Virus record (IMG/VR): IMGVR_UViG_3300021090_000016
Location: 1 to 64,000 of that record
Reading direction: 5' to 3' (one strand)
DNA from: a virus
Length of the DNA: 64,000 bases
Shown here: positions 42,503 through 46,430 of the stretch, one piece after another
How the letters are laid out: each line of letters begins with the position of its first letter
Position numbering within the stretch: the first letter of the stretch is position 1
Translations under genes and position numbers: made by a program
Notes under the pieces: model-generated
Told to the model about the DNA's origin: nothing
What the model saw: only the letters and a program-made list of their open reading frames with translations
The model's database searches: none

Positions 42503-42574
42503 GCCGGCTTAGCTTAACGGCAAAGCCGCCCGCTTGTATCGGGAAGATTGGGGGTTCAAGTCCCTCAGCCGGCT
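42503..42574 (+). tRNA. tRNA-Thr(TGT)
   Basis: 72 nt. Acceptor GCCGGCT/AGCCGGC fully paired, T arm GGGGG-TTCAAGT-CCCTC, anticodon loop CTTGTAT (anticodon TGT) with a stem of four Watson-Crick pairs plus one mismatch. D region GCTTAACGGCAAAGC. CCA is not encoded. Phage tRNAs help translate codons rare in the host. Confidence 0.85.
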
Positions 42575-42733
42575 CTTGTATTCTCATAACCTGTTGTGCG
42601 CGCGGTTGGTACTGACAAGCGGTCCAGAGGGTTAGATTCCCTGAAGCCTGTTGGCCTGGAGCGCAACTGCTTGTTGGGTGCCTGGCAAACGCCCAATGCC
42701 ATGCATGGCCAGGACTGATAATCCTGGCCAACT
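42575..42733 (+). other. tRNA-like spacer with an anticodon-arm-like hairpin
   Basis: 159 bases between two tRNAs. It contains T-arm-like GAGGG-TTAGATT-CCCTG (near 42630) and a perfect 9-bp stem TGGCCAGGA/TCCTGGCCA around loop CTGATAA (42706-42730), the size and loop of an anticodon arm with GAT. No full cloverleaf is found. It may hold decayed tRNAs or a processing stem. Confidence 0.4.
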
Positions 42734-42807
42734 GTCGGGGTAGAGGAGTGGTTGTCTTCGCCTGCCTCATAAGCAGGAGATCGCTGGTTCGAATCCAGCC
42801 CCCGGCC
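42734..42807 (+). tRNA. tRNA-Met(CAT)
   Basis: 74 nt. Acceptor GTCGGGG/CCCCGGC (one U-G), D stem GAGG/CTTC, anticodon stem CCTGC/GCAGG with loop CTCATAA (CAT), T arm GCTGG-TTCGAAT-CCAGC. All arms pair. CCA is not encoded. It could read Met codons (or Ile if lysidine-modified); the loop alone cannot decide. Confidence 0.88.
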
Positions 42808-42809
42808 CT

Positions 42810-43118: not shown

Positions 43119-44147
43119 ATGACTCCTGCGAAGCTCAATGTCTTTTTCGCTTTCTTCAGTTACTCCGGCAACGGCGGCTTCTCTTCTTGCCACCCTTCTC
43201 TCAGAGGATGGTTCGCCGAAACGCTTCTCAAGTGTAAATCTGACGAGCGCGTTGGGGAGATTCTGGACAAGGATTTCTCTGATACGCCAATCACTATGAC
43301 GCGCAATGCCGCTGTGCAGATGGCGAAGAAAGCAAGGGCTGATGTGCTGGTCATGATTGATTCAGACCAGTACCCAGACCGGGAGTTGGCTGAGGGCGAT
43401 CCATTGGCCAAGCCGTTCTGGGACACGTCGTTTGACTTCCTCTACAAGAGGCGCGTCGAAGGCAAGGTCACGGTGATTGCAGCGCCGTACTGTGGCCCGC
43501 CTCCGCACAACAACGTCTACGTCTTTCGCTGGGCCAACTGGAACAACTACTCTCCAGACCAGAACATTCGCATTGAGCAGTACACGCGCGAAGAAGCTGC
43601 CCATAGAGCTGGAATTGAAGACGTAGCCGCGTTGCCCACTGGGCTCAGTATGTTCGATATGAGAGCCTTCGATCTCATCGACAATCCTTACTTCTACTAC
43701 GAGTACAAGGGGGATGGCGAGCTGTGCAATCACTGTTGTCAACGCAAGCCTGGACCGCAGGCAGAGAAGAACAGTACGGAGGATGTGACTGTCACCAGAG
43801 ACATCTCATTGCACGGTCAGGCCATGCTGGGGTACAGCCCGATCTTTGTGAACTGGGACGCCTGGGCTGGTCACTGGAAGCCTCTGTGCGTGGATAAGCC
43901 GAAGCCTCTGACCATTGACAACGTTGGCGCGAAGTACAAGCGTGCTTTCGAGAGCGGAATCCGTGGTAACTCCCGGCTGGTGATCCTTGACCCAGGGGCA
44001 CAGAAGGCGCACGTCGTCTCGAGGCTAAGGACCGGCGACGAGATTGTGGAGAAGGAGCCAATAATCCACAGGCTCAACAAGGGTCTGGACGACGAAATGG
44101 TTCGGGAGAAAGATTGGCTTCCCAACGGCGCCAAGGTGATGCCATGA
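43119..44147 (+). CDS. GT-A glycosyltransferase-like protein
   Basis: 342 residues. TMTRNAAVQMAKKARADVLVMIDSDQYPD places a DSD motif at 81-83, the metal- and sugar-nucleotide-binding DxD of GT-A enzymes. The C-terminal region has HCCQRKPG and other conserved-looking motifs. It may glycosylate a virion protein, DNA or an envelope polymer. It leads into the membrane/lysis-like genes with a 4-base overlap. Confidence 0.75.
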   Translation: MTPAKLNVFFAFFSYSGNGGFSSCHPSLRGWFAETLLKCKSDERVGEILDKDFSDTPITMTRNAAVQMAKKARADVLVMIDSDQYPDRELAEGDPLAKPFWDTSFDFLYKRRVEGKVTVIAAPYCGPPPHNNVYVFRWANWNNYSPDQNIRIEQYTREEAAHRAGIEDVAALPTGLSMFDMRAFDLIDNPYFYYEYKGDGELCNHCCQRKPGPQAEKNSTEDVTVTRDISLHGQAMLGYSPIFVNWDAWAGHWKPLCVDKPKPLTIDNVGAKYKRAFESGIRGNSRLVILDPGAQKAHVVSRLRTGDEIVEKEPIIHRLNKGLDDEMVREKDWLPNGAKVMP

Positions 44148-44302
44148 ACGAAGCAGTTCTGGTCCAGGGGCTGATCGACGACGCCATTAACCGTCTTGAG
44201 AAGGCGGTCCAGATTGTCTACTGGACTGGGTTTAGCCAGGGCGCGGCGGCTGCTGCCATCGGACTGATCGTGCTGTTCATGCTTTTCGGGAGGCGGACGT
44301 GA
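44144..44302 (+). CDS. Small single-span membrane protein
   Basis: 52 residues, ATGA overlap with the gene upstream, AAGGTG before the start. One hydrophobic helix (GAAAAAIGLIVLFMLFG) near the C-terminus. Position next to an anchor/peptidase suggests a holin- or spanin-like role; not proven. Confidence 0.6.
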   Translation: MNEAVLVQGLIDDAINRLEKAVQIVYWTGFSQGAAAAAIGLIVLFMLFGRRT

Positions 44303-44466
44303 GGCAATTTACGCTGACCATTCTGGTTGTGGCTGCTGCTGGGCTCGTATGGATGGCATTCTTCCATTCGCCTGCTCCGGCTCCTTCCCCAGCTCCTGCG
44401 CCTATCAAGCAGCCCGAGCCAAAGCCAACCCCAAAGCCAGATCCGAAGCCTAGGAACCCGCTCTGA
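44299..44466 (+). CDS. Membrane anchor with Pro-rich linker, ends at in-frame TGA
   Basis: 55 residues, GTG start overlapping the upstream stop (GTGA) with GGGAGG before it. MRQFTLTILVVAAAGLVWMAF is a signal anchor or TM helix. A Pro/Ala/Lys linker (PAPAPSPAPAPIKQPEP...) follows, then TGA at 44464-44466. The same frame stays open into the peptidase gene beyond. Too short to be a stand-alone linker, it looks like the N-terminus of that protein. Confidence 0.65.
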   Translation: MRQFTLTILVVAAAGLVWMAFFHSPAPAPSPAPAPIKQPEPKPTPKPDPKPRNPL

Positions 44467-44502
44467 CCGAAGGAAAATGCAGGGGCTGCGGTCGCAGCCA
44501 AG

Positions 44503-45165
44503 GTGCTCGAAACGACGGATGGCGGCCTGATGATTCGTGAGGGCGATAGCTGGGTGCGTTACGTGCCAAAGGTTGAAGCAAAGGTAGGCGGGGCTGTCAG
44601 CCCTGATGGCGCGGAGCAGATCCAGTGTGATTTTCCTGGTCAGTACCACATGAGGAACACTGGAGGCATGGGACCGCGTGGACCTGGCAGTGGTGACGGG
44701 CTGTGCGTTTTCACCAGCATTGAGCACAGTGCCATTCACCAGAACGTCCCTGAGCTGATCGGCTTCCAGAAGTGGATGATGAGGAAACCAGGTGGCGGCT
44801 ACCCCGAGAAGGTGGACGCCATGATCGACCAGTTCTGCAAGGAGCGCGGTCTGGCAAAGCCCAACTATATCCAGGTGCAAGGGCCTGACCTTGAGGTTAT
44901 CCGCCTTGCATGCAAAACGGGTCGTATGCCTGCTGTGACCTACGGCGTCAGCCCGTCTGGTCGCTATGGCGGGCAGAGGATTCTCCACATGGTCAACGCC
45001 CCGCACGGCTCGCAGGCTTGGTTTGCTGTGCTGGACAACAACTATATCGAGCCACGCGAGGGGGCTTATGAGTGGCTCTCGCCGCAGGAGTTCAGCCGTG
45101 CTTACGGGAGCGGCTGGAGCGTGATCTTGCTTGCACCGCCACCGCCGCCAGTGCCAACGAACTGA
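44503..45165 (+). CDS. C39-like cysteine peptidase domain
   Basis: 220 residues from a GTG at 44503 that lacks a good ribosome site. GDGLCVFTSIEHSA places a candidate nucleophile Cys at 68. H162 in ILHMVNAPHG and D178/N179 in VLDNNY fit the His and Asx of papain-like/C39-fold peptidases. Pro-rich tail. It probably cuts cell-wall peptides or proteins. The frame is continuous from the upstream anchor except for one TGA, so the real product may be a membrane-tethered fusion. Confidence 0.7.
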   Translation: MLETTDGGLMIREGDSWVRYVPKVEAKVGGAVSPDGAEQIQCDFPGQYHMRNTGGMGPRGPGSGDGLCVFTSIEHSAIHQNVPELIGFQKWMMRKPGGGYPEKVDAMIDQFCKERGLAKPNYIQVQGPDLEVIRLACKTGRMPAVTYGVSPSGRYGGQRILHMVNAPHGSQAWFAVLDNNYIEPREGAYEWLSPQEFSRAYGSGWSVILLAPPPPPVPTN

Positions 45166-45173
45166 GGTATATG

Positions 45174-46115
45174 ATGCGACTCTTCCTTTTGTCCGTCTTT
45201 CTTGCCATTCCAGTGCAGGCAATTGCCCAGTGTGGACCTGGTGGGTGTTCCTCGGGCGGCTCGTTTGCCCAGCAAGCAGATTCTCAGTGGAAGCATGATT
45301 CCATCGCCTACGATCGTGTCCACTGGTACGAGAATGGTCAACCAGTGAAGACCTACTGGTACGACAGTGGCGAGACGACCGTATACACGCCGTTTGTCGT
45401 CGGGAAGGCTGCTGTCAAGGATTCTGCTGCCAAGTGCTGCTTTTGCTCACCCAATTGCACATGCAAGTGCGATTGCAAGTGCAGCACGATAGGGACAAAG
45501 TGCAACAGTTGCTGCCCCTGTGCGCCAAAATCCGAAGCGATCCCGCCAGACAGAAACTACGGGATCATGCTGGATAAGATGCGCGAAAACTGTGACGAAA
45601 CCAGGTACAGCATCACGGACTGGCGTGGTCAACACCAAGTCACCAAGGGCCAAGCCCTGGACGCCGTGAAGAGCAAGCTCAGCGATGACAGTGGGAAGAA
45701 TCCGGTCGTTATCGTCGGTGGGACTGTTGAGCAGCGGAACACGGTGATTAATGACCTCGCCGGCAGTCCTAGCCTGGTGTGGTTCAAGGACAAGGCGCTT
45801 GTACAGACCTATCCTGACGCCAGCCACTATCAGCTTGAAGGCTTCAAACTGCCACAGGACGAGCGCTTTAAGAAGTCTGGGTTTATGATCGCTCTGCTGA
45901 CTCCTCCGAACAGGGACGGGTTCGGCAAGCTGCTGTACGCCCAGTACGACTACGACGGTGGGGCAGAGAAGTTTTCCATCCAGGCTCGCCCAAGGGTTGA
46001 CCCGAACTTCGATCCGAACAAGAAGGACCCGGTAAGCGGCGGTTTCCCTAACATCCCGTGGTGGATCTACCCGTTGGCTGGCGCCGGCATCGCCCTCTTC
46101 ATCATCAAGAAGTGA
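45174..46115 (+). CDS. Secreted Cys-rich protein with C-terminal membrane helix
   Basis: 313 residues from the ATG at 45174 (GAGG six bases upstream). Signal peptide MRLFLLSVFLAIPVQAIA, then CGPGGC, then a dense cluster CCFCSPNCTCKCDCKC...CNSCCPC near residues 85-115. A folded middle (LVQTYPDASHYQLEGF) and a final IYPLAGAGIALFIIKK helix. CGPGGC and such clusters are familiar from planctomycete exported proteins. Function unknown; perhaps an envelope or superinfection factor. Confidence 0.7.
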   Translation: MRLFLLSVFLAIPVQAIAQCGPGGCSSGGSFAQQADSQWKHDSIAYDRVHWYENGQPVKTYWYDSGETTVYTPFVVGKAAVKDSAAKCCFCSPNCTCKCDCKCSTIGTKCNSCCPCAPKSEAIPPDRNYGIMLDKMRENCDETRYSITDWRGQHQVTKGQALDAVKSKLSDDSGKNPVVIVGGTVEQRNTVINDLAGSPSLVWFKDKALVQTYPDASHYQLEGFKLPQDERFKKSGFMIALLTPPNRDGFGKLLYAQYDYDGGAEKFSIQARPRVDPNFDPNKKDPVSGGFPNIPWWIYPLAGAGIALFIIKK

Positions 46116-46124
46116 GTGACTTCA

Positions 46125-46430
46125 ATGGATTACCTCTCTTTGGCTGGTGGCGCTGGCGGCTGCTGCCTCGTCTTGCTTGCCATTGCCTATCGCTCGGGCT
46201 TGCTTGAGAAGCTACTGTCTTTGCTCAGCAAGAAGCAGACTGTCAGTCCTACGAAGGTCGATAATGTTCGTCCTGGGTCTGAATTGGAAGTCTTCCTGGC
46301 TCGGCATCAGAGAGACCAGGAGCGGCTCGATGCTGAGCGAACCATGATCCACGACTTCCTCAACCAACAGCCGCCAGGGGCAGGTGTGCCTCTAGGCGTG
46401 TTCCCCAAACCGGAGAAAACCGATGCTTGA
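46125..46430 (+). CDS. Small membrane protein
   Basis: 101 residues from the ATG at 46125 (a GTG at 46116 is also possible). N-terminal hydrophobic helix (LAGGAGGCCLVLLAIAY), charged remainder. Might be holin-like given its place. Confidence 0.5.
   Translation: MDYLSLAGGAGGCCLVLLAIAYRSGLLEKLLSLLSKKQTVSPTKVDNVRPGSELEVFLARHQRDQERLDAERTMIHDFLNQQPPGAGVPLGVFPKPEKTDA

Follow-up and report, generated by a model that had tools for sequence, protein, structure and literature searches.

Phage Qbeta has a leaky UGA at coat/A1 as a constant feature of the gene. For bacteria, in-frame stops under continued purifying selection have been reported, with sharing between orthologues as the criterion (PMC7918605). 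Here, an in-frame TGA is described in a stretch of 64,000 nucleotides (the window), part of a 67,551-base IMG/VR virus record (IMGVR_UViG_3300021090_000016), where it falls between a membrane anchor and a papain-fold peptidase-like domain. It is probable that the ancestral gene for a tethered papain-fold peptidase was interrupted in this genome by a private nonsense codon, in frame, where the linker ends. The features of the locus are listed in Table 1.

Table 1. Features of the split peptidase gene and its immediate neighbors in the window
Feature	Position	Strand	Description
Small protein	44144..44302	+	52 aa, single transmembrane (TM) segment, holin-like size and topology; 4-bp overlap with the anchor ORF
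Anchor ORF	44299..44466	+	TM segment at the N terminus, then a Pro-rich linker up to the TGA
In-frame TGA	44464..44466	+	End of linker, near where relatives have the P-W-G motif; aligned by eye
Peptidase domain	44467..45165	+	232 codons after the stop, with its own stop at 45163-45165; based on relatives, predicted fold, and Foldseek
Hairpin	44484..44499	+	GGCTGC-GGTC-GCAGCC; 6-bp GC-rich stem, GGTC loop; not significant
Best in-frame restart candidate	44530..44532	+	ATG, weak Shine-Dalgarno (SD) site; would give an unexported enzyme
Predicted catalytic Cys (Cys80 after the stop)	44704..44706	+	Invariant column; start of helix 80-91
Predicted catalytic His174	44986..44988	+	Invariant column; strand 171-181
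Asp190-Asn191-Asn192	45034..45042	+	Predicted to include the third catalytic residue; invariant columns
Downstream exported protein	45171..46115	+	C-terminal TM segment; homologous sequence in L092 and L094; forms a fusion with the peptidase in many relatives

The anchor ORF starts with a GTG at 44299, which overlaps the stop of the preceding gene and has GGGAGG upstream (duplex dG of -10.3, better than 99% of random sites). The ORF reads MRQFTLTILVVAAAGLVWMAFF before continuing into the Pro-rich linker, and its TM segment has a hydropathy of 2.42. After the TGA comes a C, and no further stop occurs in this frame between 44467 and 45162, which bears out the initial annotation, in which the TGA parted an anchor from an in-frame peptidase frame open to 45165. 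The downstream frame is coding far beyond chance, with relatives of up to 63% identity (E value of 2e-79). Where the relative L148 has PRRPWGKESTAPVGAKVLG, the window reads PRNPL-stop-PKENAGAAVAAKVL, a placement made by eye in a low-complexity linker and approximate by a residue or two. The residues following the stop are similar to those that join linker and domain in relatives such as L148, in agreement with the earlier impression that they are linker-like. About 28 codons between linker and domain (44503-44586), partly predicted to form beta strands, have no counterpart in relatives.

With the window protein as the sole query, no close relatives were returned from IMG/VR, phage records, or GTDB genomes, and relatives were retrieved with an alignment of distant members instead. 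The 140 loci with a matching frame were reduced to 76 by removal of duplicates, and 75 of these are distinct from the start codon through the catalytic core. In all 75, one unbroken ORF encodes the domain together with a preceding signal peptide or membrane anchor, including L137, which was flagged by the hydropathy cutoff yet has a signal-like N terminus (MPHLSKRTFLRSIAAITMGSPAFG). The TM and Pro-rich-linker design of the window recurs in 24 of the 75 (e.g., L092, L094, L096, L132, L136, L141, L148, and L161), and the linkers of 19 of these 24 contain P-W near the place of the window stop, often as P-W-G at the linker end. No internal stop or frameshift was found by tblastn in 71 distinct copies. 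The homologue alignment that had been proposed as a check on continuity thus returned continuous, exported proteins throughout, which strongly supports an ancestrally continuous gene; within the collections searched, the split is confined to this genome.

The downstream half is predicted to be a papain-fold cysteine peptidase-like domain (clan CA). The AlphaFold2 model, based on a 32-row alignment, has a pLDDT of 88.3 and a pTM of 0.82. Its best Foldseek matches among solved structures are papain-like and include CtaG, phytochelatin synthase Alr0975, cathepsins, papain, staphopain, and C39 PCAT1, with probabilities of 0.9 to 1.0 for many of them and low TM-scores (about 0.3 to 0.46 by query length); the viral structure library gave weak papain-like matches only. 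C80, H174, D190, and N191 are invariant in the alignment, and the predicted catalytic residues are intact in the window. The Pfam C39 profile matched neither the window protein nor 31 relatives, and sequence searches of Pfam, PHROG, and PDB gave no convincing family for the peptidase, the PDB matches being at chance level. The initial annotation had called the domain "C39-like"; the C39 identity is unsupported, and the label is too specific because none of the three sequence searches assigns a family. "Papain-fold peptidase" describes the domain better.

The identity to the locus L092 is 57% for the peptidase domain, 60% for the capsid protein, 48% for the terminase, and 42% for the gene at 43119, and by this measure the domain is about as conserved as the capsid and structural genes and not decayed. 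The window sits on a branch of 0.58, against 0.31 and 0.35 for its sisters, a difference too modest to demonstrate decay. Among 266 distinct copies of five genes from the same collection, two had an isolated in-frame stop. With so few cases, and with one of them close to a C terminus, the rate is rough; by this rate, one in-frame stop in a window of dozens of genes is unremarkable. An all-frame scan of the relatives for further broken genes yielded mostly shadow frames, and no evidence was drawn from it.

The initial annotation had left the choice between stop readthrough and a nonsense mutation. One continuous protein has indeed been split, judging from the 75 relatives, and nonsense is preferred because programmed readthrough should leave a conserved stop and this stop is unique; readthrough has no positive support. 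Under the preferred reading, the ancestral gene would have encoded a TM anchor, a Pro-rich linker, and a catalytic domain, that is, an exported membrane-tethered peptidase. The lack of decay in the domain means that the mutation arose recently or that the gene still yields some product, and it is on this ground that the nonsense change is taken to be recent. Translation would now end mostly after the anchor, with the full-length enzyme made at most in small amounts by ordinary UGA leakiness and an unexported fragment in small amounts by a restart at ATG 44530.

If the TGA were an error of base calling or assembly in this metagenomic contig and the true gene were continuous, the picture would be much the same, as the interruption is private and a difference of one codon suffices. 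The capsid, terminase, portal, and 43119 genes are all full-length in the window, so nothing else marks the phage as degraded, which is in line with such an error. However, the consensus of an assembled contig seldom has a single wrong base, and we give this explanation a low probability.

The intact domain would also be expected if the UGA were functionally read through, the anchor being the main product and a few percent or less of translation giving the tethered peptidase. The coding homology continues in frame with no second stop, the residues after the stop are like the linker end of relatives, and the anchor and linker are likewise undamaged, as a leaky and still useful gene would show. 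In addition, the UGA is followed by C, a GC-rich hairpin starts 18 nucleotides downstream of the UGA, and bacterial in-frame stops under purifying selection provide a precedent (PMC7918605). However, the stop is present in none of the 75 relatives, although sharing between orthologues is the criterion in that study. The search for a downstream stem-loop did find the hairpin, but near background: 5.7% of all TGAs in the window are followed by one that scores as high, and 0.8 to 2.2% by one of the stricter forms. The TGA-C context, which had been noted as leaky, is near background as well, as it also ends the genes at 46430, 50300, and 58900 (3 of the 20 other TGA-ended genes); the literature on the nucleotide that follows bacterial stop codons (PMC5289835) contains nothing specific on UGA followed by C. 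No suppressor tRNA or tRNA-Sec gene was found in the window, whose four tRNAs are Met, Pro, Thr, and Met. Functional readthrough is thus considered unlikely. Moreover, the pair of tethered and untethered enzymes that the initial annotation expected from it would not arise; the products would instead be the anchor alone and the tethered enzyme. Recoding of TGA by an alternative code was considered and rejected because TGA is the main stop of this phage, closing 21 of the 26 gene ends checked, the split-gene TGA included.

Incorporation of selenocysteine at the UGA, directed by the same hairpin, is extremely unlikely. The position of the hairpin and the G at the start of its loop fit the bacterial SECIS shape, and 28 of 45 genomes of the Singulisphaera order have a strong tRNA-Sec match (62 bits or more); matches of about 53 bits and below in this order are probably cross-matches to other tRNAs, because all 14 control genomes also give them. 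However, the relatives show no Cys at the aligned position, where they mostly have P-W-G (aligned by eye in a low-complexity linker), and it is this lack that makes selenocysteine improbable. The site is a linker rather than a redox site, a SECIS-like hairpin follows 0.8 to 5.7% of all TGAs according to how strict the rule is, and there is neither an Rfam SECIS match nor a tRNA-Sec gene in the window.

The two parts could also be real genes in their own right, an anchor-only protein and a peptidase separately initiated at ATG 44530 or GTG 44503. As the initial annotation stated, GTG 44503 has no ribosome site (dG of -2.9, reached by 47% of random sites). ATG 44530, which had been missed, has a weak purine-rich site (dG of -6.3, reached by 10.5% of random sites) of a strength comparable to several real genes in the window and within the range of accepted genes here. 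The roughly 28 residues without counterpart in relatives between linker and domain, with their partly predicted beta strands, would also suit a separate gene. However, no relative initiates in the 44530/44503 region, and none was found that starts near 44503 with a ribosome site of its own. The maximum hydropathy after 44503 is 0.2, and a separately started peptidase would be the only known family member without an export segment. The sequence just past the stop also looks like the linker-to-domain junction of relatives, e.g., L148. Two separate genes are accordingly doubtful, with only a slight probability, and the nonsense interruption of a continuous gene remains the preferred reading; automated annotation of this locus would erroneously report the peptidase as a separate protein that is not exported.

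Genes for capsid (40655), terminase (47672), and portal (50359) surround the split gene and have relatives in other IMG/VR contigs. Relatives of the peptidase are also present in four genome assemblies, and because three of these are Planctomycetota, including Singulisphaera, the virus is probably, not certainly, a phage of Planctomycetota. The fourth match, L148 (JAKJAE010000010.1), is on a contig binned as Chloroflexi, which is possibly a misbinned phage contig. Genes for tRNA-Thr and tRNA-Met (42503-42575 and 42734-42808) lie between the capsid-side genes and the 43119 gene, and a tRNA-Met gene is likewise located 3' of the capsid-side genes in L002, L004, L006, L007, and L008. The 43119 gene (43119-44147) encodes a 342-amino-acid protein that has 285 confirmed IMG/VR relatives, mostly near terminase genes, and no convincing Pfam match.

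The block from 44144 to 46115, consisting of the small TM protein, the peptidase, and the exported protein with a C-terminal TM segment, recurs in different phages (L091-L230). A membrane motif, W-x-G-F-x-(Q/D)-G, is found in the 52-amino-acid protein and in the gene 5' of the peptidase in many relatives (L091, L207-L221, and others). By a crude rule, a TM ORF precedes the peptidase in 32 of the 76 relatives, a long C-terminal fusion is present in 32, and the downstream ORF is separate in 36. No Pfam or PHROG name was obtained for the peptidase or its two neighbors in the window. L091 and L094 have the peptidase, but the 5 kb flanking it on each side contains no match to the capsid or terminase genes of the window, suggesting transfer of the block between different phages. 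The position of the peptidase between a holin-like TM protein and a second membrane protein suggests a role in lysis or at the cell envelope. The recurring block is a candidate lysis or envelope-remodeling module, and the phages of these hosts are little known. We consider it improbable that the UGA is a newly acquired functional leaky stop (or selenocysteine codon) that rations the tethered peptidase and acts as a brake on an enzyme of a lysis cassette. More useful than the stop itself may be a by-product of the analysis, a putative unnamed family of exported papain-fold peptidases in Planctomycetota phages.

The locus can be compared with three described systems. The window domain has the predicted fold and the Cys-His-Asp/Asn order in common with the papain-like peptidases of clan CA, but it differs from them in its low TM-scores, identities of 8 to 16%, and lack of a convincing sequence match, which places it in an unnamed family. 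Like the leaky UGA of Qbeta coat/A1, the TGA is followed by an in-frame extension with another domain; however, the relatives of the window gene have no stop at that place. The nonsense-interrupted genes of bacteria (PMC7918605) likewise have a single in-frame stop in an otherwise open and conserved frame, whereas the stop in the window is common to no relative and so lacks the conservation by which those stops were recognized.
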